DNA of 64,000 nucleotides, taken from Nitrospinaceae bacterium (lineage in GTDB: Bacteria; Nitrospinota; Nitrospinia; Nitrospinales; VA-1). The notes below the pieces were generated by a model. The model searched no databases. It was not told where the DNA came from and worked only from the letters and a program-made list of their open reading frames with translations. Positions within the stretch are counted from its first letter, which is position 1. Each line of letters starts with the position of its first letter. Shown here one piece after another: positions 21,462 to 29,623 of the stretch. The stretch is from contig BQJC01000001.1 of the NCBI GenBank assembly GCA_021604505.1, forward strand, positions 1,199,501-1,263,500. The letters run 5' to 3'. The position numbers and the translations under genes were made by a program.

Positions 21462-21946
21462 TTTGCGATTTCCTCAAGGCTTTTTTGCAATTCACCGGGG
21501 CTGAGTTTATCCGGAGGCAGGGCGATTAGCTTTTCGACGTACCGATCCAATTCCCGGTAAACCTTCTCGAACAGGCCCATTTTTTCGTGAAAGGGTCCTT
21601 TAAACGCCGCGGGGTCTTCCATGCCCCAATGGGCATTGGCTGGGCTTCCCGGCCAGACCGGGCAGACCTCGCCTGCGGCGTTGTCGCAAACGGTAATGAC
21701 TGCGTCTATCGCCGGCGCGTTAGGAACCGTGAACTCATCCCAGCTTTTGCTTCGGAGCCGGTCAATGGGGTGGCCGTACGTATCAAGCAAGGCGATAGCC
21801 ACGGGATTGACCTTGCCCACGGGATGACTTCCGGCGCTGTAAGCGCGAAAGCGTTTACCGCCGTATTTATTGATGAGCGCTTCCGCCAGAATACTGCGCG
21901 CCGAATTACCGGTGCACAGGATGAGAATGTTTATAGGTTTTGTCAT
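21458..21946 (-). CDS. arsC: Arsenate reductase ArsC (low-molecular-weight phosphatase type)
   Basis: Reduces As(V) to As(III), which the neighbouring permease exports. About 162 aa from ATG 21946, which overlaps the arsI stop by one base. Active-site loop LCTGNSARS (Cys11 from this start) is the LMW-PTP-type P-loop. The redox cysteines are in VITVCDNAAGEVCPVWPG, followed by HWGMEDPAAFKG, placing it in the thioredoxin-coupled (or mycothiol-like) ArsC group. The C-terminus is about 25 residues longer than the shortest members. Confidence 0.93.
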   Translation of the reverse strand: MTKPINILILCTGNSARSILAEALINKYGGKRFRAYSAGSHPVGKVNPVAIALLDTYGHPIDRLRSKSWDEFTVPNAPAIDAVITVCDNAAGEVCPVWPGSPANAHWGMEDPAAFKGPFHEKMGLFEKVYRELDRYVEKLIALPPDKLSPGELQKSLEEIAK

Positions 21947-22389
21947 CAGCAACACCCAGCGGTTTCAGGGTCCGTTTCATTCGGAACACAGCACGCAGTC
22001 TTTTCAGAAGTTTCATGGCTGAATAGGTCAGCATCCTCCATGTTCCGGTAAGTCTCCCAGGCGATGCCGCTGGGGTCTTCCACCCAGGTTTTATCGGATT
22101 TTGCGTAACAGCAGGTGGTTTCGCCTTCGTCAAAGGTTTGCATGTCAGCTTGCTTCAGACGCTCGCGCACATCGTCCAACTCTTCCGCGCTCTCAACCTG
22201 AAGACCGAGGTGGTCGATGCCGGGTTTAGCGCCGCGGGCGGAAATGGCGAAGTTGACTTTCGGGTCGTCCAGCATCCATTTGGCGTAATCCTCCTCGCAC
22301 TTGGTCGGTTCACTGCCAAACAGTTTCGAGTAAAAGCCGATGGATTGCTTTAAATCATCTATGGAGACATGAATGTGTAGGCGTTTCAT
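21946..22389 (-). CDS. arsI: ArsI/CadI-family dioxygenase-like metalloprotein
   Basis: A 147-aa VOC-fold protein of the type that cleaves the C-As bond of trivalent organoarsenicals. Key positions seen: His5, His60 and Glu112 as likely Fe(II) ligands, and the vicinal pair Cys93-Cys94 in ETTCCYAKSDKTWVEDPSG that binds As(III). It also has two extra vicinal pairs at the C-terminus (TACC, and GCC as the last three residues), giving six cysteines able to bind arsenic or another thiophilic metal. Second gene of the ars operon. CadI-type cadmium binding is the alternative. Confidence 0.88.
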   Translation of the reverse strand: MKRLHIHVSIDDLKQSIGFYSKLFGSEPTKCEEDYAKWMLDDPKVNFAISARGAKPGIDHLGLQVESAEELDDVRERLKQADMQTFDEGETTCCYAKSDKTWVEDPSGIAWETYRNMEDADLFSHETSEKTACCVPNETDPETAGCC

Positions 22390-22401
22390 GAATGGTCTTC
22401 C

Positions 22402-22740
22402 TTATTTTGTGGTGGTTTTAGGAACACAGTCCGCAGGAGAATCGCAGTTCTCCACCTGACCCTGACAGCAGTTTTCCGTGAGGTAGGCCATCAGGTCGTT
22501 CATGCAATCGTAGTTGGCGGAATAAAACAGCGTCCGCCCCTCGCGGCGGCAGAGAATCAACCCGGCCTGTTTCAATTGATTGAGATGAAAGGACAGGGTG
22601 GACAGGGGCAGGTCCAGCCGTTCCCCGACTTTCCCCGCAGGAACCCCGTTCTTTCCGGCCTGAACCAGAAACCGGAAGATTTCCAGACGGCGCTCCTGAG
22701 CCAGTGCCGACAAAGCTGAAACCGCAGTATTAATTTCCAT
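22402..22740 (-). CDS. arsR: ArsR/SmtB-family arsenic repressor
   Basis: A 112-aa winged-helix repressor, using ATG 22740 (MEINTAVSALSALAQERRLEIF); the ORF's longer start adds 31 residues that run through the operator. The DNA-binding helix is in LPLSTLSFHLNQLKQAGLILCRREG. Cysteines 91, 92 and 99 (NCCQGQVENC) with another at 105 resemble the C-terminal As(III) triad of Acidithiobacillus-type ArsR rather than the CxC of the E. coli protein. It heads arsR-arsI-arsC-acr3 and should repress the operon until As(III) binds. Confidence 0.93.
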   Translation of the reverse strand: MEINTAVSALSALAQERRLEIFRFLVQAGKNGVPAGKVGERLDLPLSTLSFHLNQLKQAGLILCRREGRTLFYSANYDCMNDLMAYLTENCCQGQVENCDSPADCVPKTTTK

Positions 22741-22752
22741 AATTCTAGAAAT

Positions 22753-22766
22753 ATCAAAATATTGAT
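22753..22766 (-). promoter_or_regulatory. ArsR operator
   Basis: ATCAA-N4-TTGAT, a perfect inverted repeat 13 bases before the arsR start. It has the form of known ArsR-family boxes and overlaps the likely promoter (TTTACA upstream on the minus strand). Confidence 0.75.
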
Positions 22767-23114
22767 GATTTGTAAAGGGATTTTTTATGGATGGAGAGAG
22801 ATTGTAAAAGAGTTTGCCTGATAAGGCCACCAATACCTATATTTGGGAGAAGGGATTCCTCATCAGGGGAAGGGGTGGAGGTTGATATGTTTTTTGGTGA
22901 AAAATGAATTCAGATCCATTCAGCATTTGAAAACGGGGTGTCGGGCGTAAGCCACTAATTATTATTTGGGATCCAGTGAGGATCTTATTTTAATTTTGCT
23001 CCTGAGTATTTTGTCATCCACTCAAAATGCTTTTGCCGGTAGTGGTCCCGTATATCCAACATTTGTGCATCTTCCTGAAAAGTAATAAAAATTTTTAAAA
23101 AAGAAGGGATTGCC
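22767..23114. other. Divergent intergenic region
   Basis: About 350 bases between arsR and the exported protein gene. I see the AAGAAGGGATTG ribosome site of the right-hand gene and no further structure or ORF worth naming. Confidence 0.5.
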
Positions 23115-26605: not shown

Positions 26606-27181
26606 ACCCTCCTCAAGGAGTATTGCAGATAATTTTTATTATTTAGCGGCGAAATTTCATCCGGTTTTTGGATGATTCTCTCAGAACCAGACTCTATTGT
26701 CTGAAAAGGTACAGTTTTTGTGTACAAGGCTGGTATCGGTTATAATGTATTCGAGAAACCCGTTTATTTTAGCTAAAAATTCCAAATGAGGCAAAACATC
26801 TTTATTTTTAAGGAAACCGTTCCCACCCATGGGCCCGGGTTTTCAAAGACTTTGACGCTATGTGAAAACGGACGGAAGTCGATAAAAAATTTGCGTTTAT
26901 TTAGATTTATTGTTGGCGGATCAAACGGAAACGGATTTTTTATGTTCCTGAAGGTAATTGAAAGTTCAGTAAAGGATTGGAAATACAGTGCTAATCAACC
27001 GGCTTTTAGTGTTGACAGCGAGGTATAATTTGCTAGAATCCGTCAGCAAGAGGCGAACGAATTTCCAACTTTCTATTCTTCGCAGGTTGAAGAATTAACC
27101 GTATACCTAACGACCTTTTCCAGTAATTTGACAATCCAACTCCTTTTTAATAAGGGAAGTTGCGAGGGAGAAATAAACCCC
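26606..27181. other. Long divergent intergenic region
   Basis: About 575 AT-rich bases between the aldolase and the UspA-fusion gene. A good promoter is present at 27012-27039. An 80-codon frame at 26786-27028 lacks a ribosome site and recognisable features, so I do not call it a gene. Confidence 0.5.
27012..27039 (+). promoter_or_regulatory. Sigma-70 type promoter of the UspA-fusion gene
   Basis: TTGACA (27012-27017), a 16-bp spacer, TAGAAT (27034-27039), about 140 bases before the start codon, leaving a long 5' leader. A TATAAT also lies inside the spacer. Confidence 0.55.
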
Positions 27182-29170
27182 ATGTTTAAAAATATTTATT
27201 TGCCCGTAGATAATTCCGACTATTCAAACGAATGCATTGAACTGGCTCTGGGATTTGCAAAACAAGGCGAAACCACCATCACCGCAAGCCATGTGTACGC
27301 GGCTAAAATGCATGATGTCCGTTTCCGACAAATGGAAAGCGGCCTGCCTGAAGAATATCAGGATGAGCAGGAACTCGAAAAACAGCGCAACATTCACGAT
27401 CAGTTGATCACCAAAGGCATGGAAGTGATCACCGATTCGTATCTCGAAGTTCCCAAGAGAAGGTCCGCGGAAGAAAAAATGAAGTTTGTGGGCAAATCGC
27501 TCGAGGGCAGAAACTGGATCGAGCTGGTGCGGGATATCAAGGAATCGGATTATGATCTGGTGATCATGGGCGCTCTCGGGCTGGGAGCCATCAAAGATAG
27601 CCAGATGGGCACCGTGACCGAGCGGGTCATTCGCCGCATTCAAACCGACACGCTGATCGTTAAGAATATTCCAGAATTGCATGGGGAAAAAGCAACGAGC
27701 GGAAAAATCGTGGTTGCCGTTGATGGCAGCGGCCATGCCTATGGCGGGCTGAAAACCGCCATCGAAATGGCGAAACAGCTGAACCGGCCTTTGGAAGTCA
27801 TTTCGACGTTCGACCCTTATTTCCATTACGCGATGTTCAACAGCCTGACCGGGGTTCTCACCAAAGAAGCCGGAAAAGTCTTCAAGTTTGAACAGCAGGA
27901 AAAACTGCACGAGGACATCATCGATAAAGGCCTGGCCAAGATTTACCAGGCGCATCTGGAAATTTCCAAAAAGATCGTAGAGGAAGAGGGCATCGAATGC
28001 ACCATTCGCTTGCTGGATGGTAAGGTCTTCGAGAAAGTTTTGCAGTACGCCAGGGAAGAGAACCCGTACTTGCTGGTTTTGGGCCGCATCGGAGTGCACA
28101 GCGCACCGGACATGGACATCGGCGGAAATACCGAAAACCTGTTACGGCTGGTTCCGTGCAACGTTTATCTGTCCAGCAAAGTGTTCAAGCCGCCGATAGA
28201 AATGGAAGCCGAGGAAAGCATCGAATGGACCGCGGAGGCCAGAGAGCGCTTGAAGAAGATTCCGGGATTCGTTCGTCCCATGGCCACCAGCGCCATCCTG
28301 CGCTATGCTCTGGAAAGAGGGCACAGCATGATCACCTCCGGTGTCATCACCGAGGCGGTGGAAAATATTCTGCCCGCCGGCGCTATGCAGGCCATGCGGC
28401 AGATTGGGGAAAACATGCAGAATGAAGGTGTGGACCCAAGCAGTCCGGAAGTTCTCGGCAAACTAAAAGATCAGATGATGGAAGCGCATACCGGGAAAGC
28501 GCCGGAGGAAGTCACCCTTAAATGTACGAGTTGTGGAAGCATTCTGAAGGGAGACGTGGTCAAGTGCGGAGTCTGTAGCGCCACATCGGAACGGTTCCTG
28601 CCGATCGACAAGGAAGAGTTCAAACCGGATGAAACCGAGGAGAAGGAAGTCACCACCTTCACCACCTTCGATGACATCGAAGTCAACTGGACTCAGGAAG
28701 CGCTGGATTATCTCAATGAATTTCCCGAAGGGCATGTTCGTAGAAGAGCCCGCGCGCGTATCGAGAAGAACGCCCGCATCCAGAAAATATCCGCAATCTC
28801 CGTGGCCTTCGCCAGCAAAATTCTCAATGAAAAAGCCATCAAGGAAAATGTGGATGGCAAGGGCAAGACCAATGGAAACGGAAACCCCAAGACCATTCAG
28901 GAAGTCATGGAGTTTGGCGCAACATTCGATCCGGAAGATTTTAAATGGTCGAAAGAAGCCCTTGAACGGCTGGAGCGTGTTCCCAAAGGCTTCATGCGGG
29001 ACAACACCCAGACTCGCGTGATGGGCTATGCCGGCGCAAACAATATCAAGGAAATTTCCCTGGAAGTCTGCGAAAAGGGAATCGCCGAATCCGTCAAATT
29101 GATGGAAGAGGCCATCGCTAATGGCGCCGGGTTGGATGATTTTCTGCCTAAAAAGGAGGTGGAAGCCTAG
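27182..29170 (+). CDS. Double UspA domain fused to PCP_red-like modules
   Basis: A 662-aa cytosolic protein. Two universal-stress-protein domains come first: residues 1-165 (FKNIYLPVDNSDYSNECIELAL ... DLVIMGALGLGA) and about 170-340 (GKIVVAVDGSGHAYGGLKTAI ... LLVLGRIGVHS). Then a PCP_red-like module starts near 347 (IEWTAEARERLKKIPGFVR), followed by a zinc ribbon CTSCG...CGVC near 448-471, and two more modules near 501 (VNWTQEALDYLNEFPEG) and 587 (FKWSKEALERLERVPKGFMR). PCP_red is named after the C-terminal domain of protochlorophyllide reductase subunit B. ATG 27182 follows GAGGGAG and starts at the UspA motif; the ORF's upstream start is unsupported. Possibly a stress-responsive redox or metal-binding scaffold. 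Confidence 0.85.
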   Translation: MFKNIYLPVDNSDYSNECIELALGFAKQGETTITASHVYAAKMHDVRFRQMESGLPEEYQDEQELEKQRNIHDQLITKGMEVITDSYLEVPKRRSAEEKMKFVGKSLEGRNWIELVRDIKESDYDLVIMGALGLGAIKDSQMGTVTERVIRRIQTDTLIVKNIPELHGEKATSGKIVVAVDGSGHAYGGLKTAIEMAKQLNRPLEVISTFDPYFHYAMFNSLTGVLTKEAGKVFKFEQQEKLHEDIIDKGLAKIYQAHLEISKKIVEEEGIECTIRLLDGKVFEKVLQYAREENPYLLVLGRIGVHSAPDMDIGGNTENLLRLVPCNVYLSSKVFKPPIEMEAEESIEWTAEARERLKKIPGFVRPMATSAILRYALERGHSMITSGVITEAVENILPAGAMQAMRQIGENMQNEGVDPSSPEVLGKLKDQMMEAHTGKAPEEVTLKCTSCGSILKGDVVKCGVCSATSERFLPIDKEEFKPDETEEKEVTTFTTFDDIEVNWTQEALDYLNEFPEGHVRRRARARIEKNARIQKISAISVAFASKILNEKAIKENVDGKGKTNGNGNPKTIQEVMEFGATFDPEDFKWSKEALERLERVPKGFMRDNTQTRVMGYAGANNIKEISLEVCEKGIAESVKLMEEAIANGAGLDDFLPKKEVEA

Positions 29171-29200: not shown

Positions 29201-29248
29201 AAAAGCCCCTTGACTGTTGATGGATATCAACGCGAGGGGCTTTTTTTT
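29201..29248 (+). terminator. Rho-independent terminator after the UspA-fusion gene
   Basis: AAAGCCCCT (29202-29210) pairs with AGGGGCTTT (29235-29243), followed by a run of eight T. Strong stem; 30 bases past the stop codon. Confidence 0.85.
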
Positions 29249-29344: not shown

Positions 29345-29623
29345 ATGAGGTTCGCAATCACGTTATTGAGTTTTCCGGCTCTGATCTGGGCCTATGTCGT
29401 GGTTCCTCAACTGCACCAATTTGACTGGAAGTGGTTGATTCTGGGTTTTTTTATCTATTGTTACCTGTTGTTGCGATTTTTGTCCAAGGTTGTGGAATCA
29501 CCCCAATATTATGGTTTTACTAAAGGCCGGTCCGGTAACGGGGAGACGGGCGGCGGTTATTTTGCTGACGGAGGTGCCGGTGGAGGGGATTGTGGCGGCG
29601 GCGGAGGTGGAGGCGACTGCTGA
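29345..29623 (+). CDS. Small membrane protein with Gly/Cys-rich tail
   Basis: A 92-aa protein with two hydrophobic segments (ITLLSFPALIWAYVVVP and LILGFFIYCYLLLRFL) and a soluble tail of Gly, Asp and Cys ending GGDCGGGGGGGDC. Similar Gly/Cys-rich ends occur on otherwise unrelated small membrane proteins; their role is unclear, perhaps metal binding or extrusion. The ribosome site is weak (AAGGG before ATG). It stands alone between a terminator and the exporter gene. Confidence 0.6.
   Translation: MRFAITLLSFPALIWAYVVVPQLHQFDWKWLILGFFIYCYLLLRFLSKVVESPQYYGFTKGRSGNGETGGGYFADGGAGGGDCGGGGGGGDC

Follow-up and report, generated by a model that had tools for sequence, protein, structure and literature searches.

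The window, 64,000 nucleotides of DNA from a Nitrospinaceae bacterium (a scan of named genomes places the host in this family, with 91% identity to its closest relative), holds on its forward strand a gene for a 662-residue protein of the architecture Usp-Usp-PCP_red-ribbon-PCP_red-PCP_red (27182..29170). The reading frame opens with an ATG at 27182, residues 1-662 are encoded by 27182-29167, and the stop codon occupies 29168-29170. Upstream, a promoter-like site on the same strand (TTGACA-16-TAGAAT, with a TG before the -10 element; 27012..27039) agrees with the consensus at 11 of 12 positions, this being a consensus match only; downstream lies an intrinsic terminator, likewise on the forward strand (29201..29248), in which a hairpin at 29201-29244 (-24.5 kcal/mol and z -5.7 by RNA folding) is followed by a run of U. 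Because the gene sits between this promoter-like site and a strong terminator, it is probably transcribed alone in its Nitrospinaceae host. Elsewhere in the window, a small membrane-type ORF with a Gly/Cys repeat end (GGGDCGGGGGGGDC) occupies 29345-29623 and is present at no more than 2 of the 36 Nitrospinaceae loci, and adjoining genes at 21946-22833 resemble an ArsR-type regulator and a VOC/ArsI-like protein whose tail is rich in Cys.

The N-terminal half of the protein matches the Pfam Usp family over two stretches (108.6 bits in total), both encoded on the forward strand. Domain 1 (residues 1-161; 27182..27664) carries a G-2x-G-9x-G-T motif at G130, G133 and G143, and domain 2 (about residues 173-332; 27698..28177) has the equivalent glycines at G301, G304 and G314; these glycines of the G-2x-G-9x-G-(S/T) nucleotide motif are conserved in both domains, and a fold search with this half returned tandem Usp proteins, including the ATP-bound TTHA0350. 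Judged by its sequence, then, this half is a tandem Usp whose two domains both carry nucleotide-binding motifs. The sequence-only reading from which we started had spoken of stress-protein domains; the Usp assignment stands, together with the nucleotide motifs, but a stress role for the window protein is not supported. The tandem fold and motifs are common to the known tandem ATP-binding Usps (TTHA0350, 3AB8; Rv2623, 2JAX/3CIS; the A. fulgidus protein, 3LOQ), from which the window protein differs by its extra helical inserts with invariant His pairs and by its C-terminal PCP_red/ribbon tail. H37, H44, H72 and M51 in domain 1, and H215, H243 and H306 in domain 2, are identical in all 20 family members examined, two of which are without PCP_red yet keep the same His/Met set, and a neighbouring, unrelated Usp lacks the six histidines and M51. 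The pairs H44-H72 and H215-H243, one in each domain and each with a spacing of 28, look like a putative duplicated metal or haem site.

Towards the C-terminus, the PCP_red profile (PF08369, curated cut-off 32.5 bits) scores 112.4 bits over three stretches, again on the forward strand. Module 1 (residues 349-392; 28226..28357; 56.1 bits) and module 3 (28946..29074; 33.7 bits) each exceed the cut-off singly; module 2 (28688..28807), a basic module with a mean net charge of +5.6 across orthologues and a one-residue Gly insert, reaches 30.5 bits when taken alone in the genome profile search, slightly below it. All three contain an exact match to W-[TS]-x-E-A-x3-L-x2-[IFV]-P, at residues 349, 503 and 589, and the near-invariant positions of the module are W, P, A, R and I only, with no conserved metal ligand within it. 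Between modules 1 and 2 lies a rubredoxin-like CxxC..CxxC knuckle (C448, C451, C462 and C465; 28523..28576, forward strand), whose four cysteines are invariant in 44 orthologues. The rubrerythrin-type rubredoxin domain (PF21349, RUBY_RBDX) is matched by the knuckle in 26 of these 44 at E<=0.01; the copy in the window scores 15.7 bits, below the cut-off of 26.5. The open reading frame, its coordinates, the order of its domains and the motif common to the modules had all been proposed beforehand, and each was confirmed; the refuting outcome named beforehand, a failure of PF08369 on every segment, did not arise.

A predicted structure was obtained for module 1 in isolation (pLDDT 79), and for this module alone a fold search gave TM-scores of 0.70/0.78 against the solved PCP_red domain 2KRU and 0.62/0.70 against 2L09, and an rmsd of 0.9 over 48 columns against chain D of 2YNM. 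There were also weaker matches to AAA+ lid domains and histone folds (E 0.3-1), which we treat as fold likeness only. The model of the full-length protein is weak (pLDDT 69.8), and the domain packing that it offers was discarded on that account.

As to its distribution, we compared PCP_red proteins across Nitrospinota, Nitrospirota and Poribacteria, and a survey of Usp-PCP_red fusions, which the earlier reading had suggested, finds the same architecture in all three. An orthologue or partial match is present in 74 of the 77 genomes of the phylum Nitrospinota, and relatives in Nitrospirota and Poribacteria, at 57-59% identity in a scan of named genomes, keep the full architecture. Between phyla, modules in the same position share 49, 38 and 41% identity (modules 1, 2 and 3 respectively) as against 26-34% for modules in different positions, and modules 1, 2 and 3 are therefore one-to-one orthologous. 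Simpler forms also exist: a Nitrospinota family has a single module, deep Nitrospirota have two, and the loci L282 and L285 have none, so that the module number in the family ranges from 0 to 5; this suggests a stepwise addition of PCP_red modules to Usp. More broadly, PF08369 is found in 165 of 296 genomes of a Nitrospirota sample, with two modes, of 8-14 modules or of 1-3.

The host genome encodes five proteins that match PF08369. Besides the window protein, these are a radical SAM/SPASM protein with a C-terminal PCP_red, a protein of the HemQ/chlorite-dismutase family with PCP_red at its N-terminus, a ribbon-PCP_red protein whose gene lies directly 3' of an Mrp-type ATPase gene, and a protein made up solely of three modules; the size classes of these ORFs are also kept in relatives. 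We put the chance that two of five random genes would be tetrapyrrole enzymes at roughly 1e-5 to 3e-4. BchB, a tetrapyrrole enzyme, is the only studied home of PCP_red, and neither BchB nor ChlB is among the five; the window protein itself scores 57.8 bits against the BchB/ChlB equivalog (cut-off 509), in its tail region only. As no BchB-like protein is among the PCP_red matches of this genome, we rejected photosynthesis, or a relic of DPOR, as the explanation, and the earlier expectation that the module has a role outside photosynthesis is borne out, given that it occurs on or beside enzymes of the haem pathway.

The PCP_red-HemQ protein aligns best with coproheme decarboxylases. Across 19 loci it retains the catalytic Tyr, the distal His and further pocket residues of the C. 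diphtheriae coproheme decarboxylase, ChdC (residue roles from PMC9953210); it is alike in these respects to the actinobacterial-type enzyme and differs in its added N-terminal PCP_red and in belonging to phyla outside the Gram-positives. At 197 bits it is the only full-length HemQ of the host. Since HemY (332 bits) and the ferrochelatase HemH (278 bits) are present alongside this HemQ, with HemF giving no match in the genome and HemN none above its cut-off, the simplest reading is that the host would make haem by the coproporphyrin-dependent route, ending in PCP_red-HemQ.

The radical SAM-PCP protein is harder to place. Its best NCBIfam matches, over the whole domain, are to the radical SAM-SPASM families NirJ and AhbD (302-456 bits), and in the host these are NirJ2 at 316 bits and the haem b synthase AhbD at 302; both equivalogs have a cut-off of 500 bits. 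None of 26 relatives exceeds this value for AhbD, and the protein at L077 reaches 455.6 bits. It further differs from AhbD and NirJ in its C-terminal PCP_red tail and in occurring in genomes without the AhbA/B family (PF17805), which is absent from 26 genomes, with archaeal controls positive. Given this absence, we rejected a siroheme (Ahb) route for the radical SAM-PCP protein, and a plain AhbD was set aside in view of the sub-cut-off scores and of a second, PCP-less AhbD-like protein in the host. The latter, a radical SAM/SPASM protein (G000:C2:614404-615426; L296:1453-2532) that scores 412 bits against TIGR04545 (cut-off 500), turned up in no more than 2 of the 26 relatives that were searched. 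A further fusion, of 479 residues, is encoded at L080:699-2135 (G076:C77), where PCP_red-rubredoxin-PCP_red-PCP_red is joined to a haem-oxygenase-like (PF14518) domain.

Outside the Nitrospinaceae, 38 loci had sufficient downstream DNA for gene order to be read, and in 31 of them a radical SAM-PCP gene lies 3' of the Usp-PCP gene, mostly overlapping it or less than 100 nt away; inside the family this holds for 0 of 31 loci, no haem gene adjoins Usp-PCP, and the conserved neighbours are other genes. In a Nitrospinota family, the gene after Usp-Usp-PCP encodes a PCP_red enzyme close to AhbD (455.6 bits against a cut-off of 500). HemY joins the operon in deep branches, in the order Usp-PCP, radical SAM-PCP, HemY at L284 and L294 (304 and 291 bits, cut-off 97.85), and in Nitrospiria PCP_red-HemQ adjoins HemY. 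At L282 and L285 a Usp that belongs to the same subfamily but has no PCP_red is still partnered with radical SAM-PCP, which indicates that the partnership is independent of the fusion. One Poribacteria neighbourhood brings together Usp-PCP3, Mrp, ribbon-PCP, a CopD-like membrane protein, radical SAM-PCP and a coiled-coil PCP protein, and at L210 a siroheme-type reductase with CysG-N is a neighbour. A small CopD/UPF0093-like membrane protein (HemJ-like, sub-threshold) recurs in the operon (L127:8779-9282, L145:8457-8981, L126:6971-7411 and L205:9297-9803). Ribbon-PCP_red genes have other surroundings as well: those of deep Nitrospirota (L283:4877-5275 and L287:4617-4997) adjoin a B12-binding radical SAM gene and leuD, and the ribbon-type PCP_red-PCP_red genes of Nitrospira (L202:7049-7528, L204:5992-6471 and L211:6918-7475) lie beside an O-methyltransferase, DUF420 and a bd-like oxidase.

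Because the module recurs on or beside HemQ/ChdC, an AhbD/NirJ-type radical SAM enzyme, HemY and BchB, we tie PCP_red to the haem system, and we give an even chance to a reading in which the window protein belongs to a PCP_red-tagged system of tetrapyrrole (haem) synthesis and acts there, under nucleotide gating, as a scaffold, carrier or regulator. On this reading PCP_red would be a shared interface, which either cradles a tetrapyrrole or docks tetrapyrrole-handling proteins, such that Usp-PCP3 might pass, buffer or throttle late haem intermediates (coproheme, haem b) between PCP_red-tagged enzymes; its action may be set by the energy or redox state of the cell through nucleotide gating, with redox sensing possibly performed by the rubredoxin-like knuckle. 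The general role first proposed for the module, perhaps in binding redox cofactors or nucleic acid, survives in part: a link to cofactors is likely (HemQ, radical SAM, HemY), but the evidence is more specific than 'general', and nucleic acid finds no support in the fused domains or the neighbours. Several observations count against the haem-system reading. Putative tetrapyrrole binding by PCP_red rests on fusions and operons, and the module has no conserved metal ligand; the radical SAM partner falls below the AhbD cut-off in genomes that lack the AhbA/B family; the Usp gene of Nitrospinaceae adjoins no haem gene; ribbon-PCP_red proteins are instead paired with an ATPase of the Mrp type; and the full-length model is weak.

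In the main rival to the haem-system reading, PCP_red would be a docking module for NifH/Mrp-type P-loop ATPases or for Fe-S delivery, Usp-PCP3 would recruit Mrp or ferredoxin to Fe-S enzymes such as the radical SAM partner, and the tetrapyrrole link would be secondary. The ribbon-PCP_red gene lies directly 3' of the Mrp-type gene in Nitrospinaceae, Nitrospirota and Poribacteria alike, and the partner of BchB is the NifH-like BchL. Moreover, 2YNM, which was solved with the L protein, is the sole DPOR chain among the fold matches listed, other DPOR entries holding the domain in their sequence, and this hints that PCP_red might be ordered only with the ATPase bound, with presumed disorder elsewhere; the open-licence literature that we searched yielded no evidence on the behaviour of the BchB C-terminal domain in DPOR. 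Against this, HemQ bears an N-terminal PCP_red although it lacks an Fe-S cluster and does not require a NifH/Mrp-type ATPase, and most Usp-PCP3 operons are without Mrp, so that we regard ATPase docking as unlikely, at something over one chance in five.

We think it somewhat less likely again that the protein regulates respiratory complexes in response to oxygen or energy, with haem synthesis as one neighbour and PCP_red as a generic protein-interaction tag of the lineage. Usp-PCP does neighbour c-type cytochromes with an EB_dh haem domain (L282 and L284), a bd-like oxidase (L202) and bc-type genes (L127), and several UspA proteins, of which Usp-PCP may or may not be one, increase at low oxygen in Nitrospira marina (PMC8115632). 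However, such neighbours are haem proteins and equally consistent with haem supply, and a generic tag would hardly account for covalent fusion to HemQ, a radical SAM enzyme and BchB. A role under stress as a nucleic-acid or general redox module, to which the Usp domains, the basic module 2, the AAA+ lid and histone fold likeness (E 0.3-1) and the rubredoxin-like knuckle might each be turned, seems to us very improbable, the PCP_red ORF classes seen containing no recognised DNA- or RNA-binding domain and the operon partners being tetrapyrrole and haem genes. That the Usp protein merely carries its three modules along as neutral passengers, as the PCP-less versions at L282 and L285 and the varying module number might suggest, is scarcely credible and appears already disfavoured by conservation, with W349, W503, W589 and the ribbon cysteines invariant across two to three phyla and the modules orthologous one to one.

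Returning to the haem-system reading, several known systems offer points of comparison. Haloferax volcanii has paired haem routes, an aerobic one through PitA/ChdC and an anaerobic one through AhbD (PMC5746218), and is like the host in combining ChdC with an AhbD-type enzyme in one organism; the extra domain of its ChdC is ABM-like rather than PCP_red, and no Usp is described. The PCP_red of BchB/ChlB (2KRU, and within 2YNM) belongs to the same HMM family as the modules of the window protein and shares the predicted fold of module 1, but the window protein has no nitrogenase-like catalytic domain, three modules instead of one and a tandem Usp attached, and its host has no identified chlorophyll enzyme. 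The stand-alone Asr4154 of Nostoc (2L09) resembles the window protein in carrying the module outside BchB, and differs in being a single small protein from a phototroph. Some of these architectures are probably already in domain databases; the link between them appears to be new, and our search of the open-licence literature found no relevant paper on PCP_red function or on a Usp-PCP_red system, which is weak evidence of absence.

A wider and more tentative proposal, to which we give clearly less than even odds, is that PCP_red may be a general module for tetrapyrrole hand-over, marking BchB, ChdC/HemQ and the AhbD-type radical SAM enzyme, and that in Nitrospinota, Nitrospirota and Poribacteria Usp-PCP3 could be the hub of an undescribed system of haem synthesis and delivery, its loading gated by nucleotide and its Usp halves holding a His-rich site for metal or haem. 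The nitrite-oxidising Nitrospira and Nitrospina, which are responsible for a key step in nitrogen cycling, are rich in haem proteins, and to our knowledge the making and routing of their haem have been little described. If PCP_red does mark a haem-handling system, a domain named after chlorophyll synthesis would gain a function open to testing in bacteria that do not photosynthesise, and what it does in BchB would become easier to address; such a reading would also link the universal stress proteins, few of whose targets are known, with one particular pathway.
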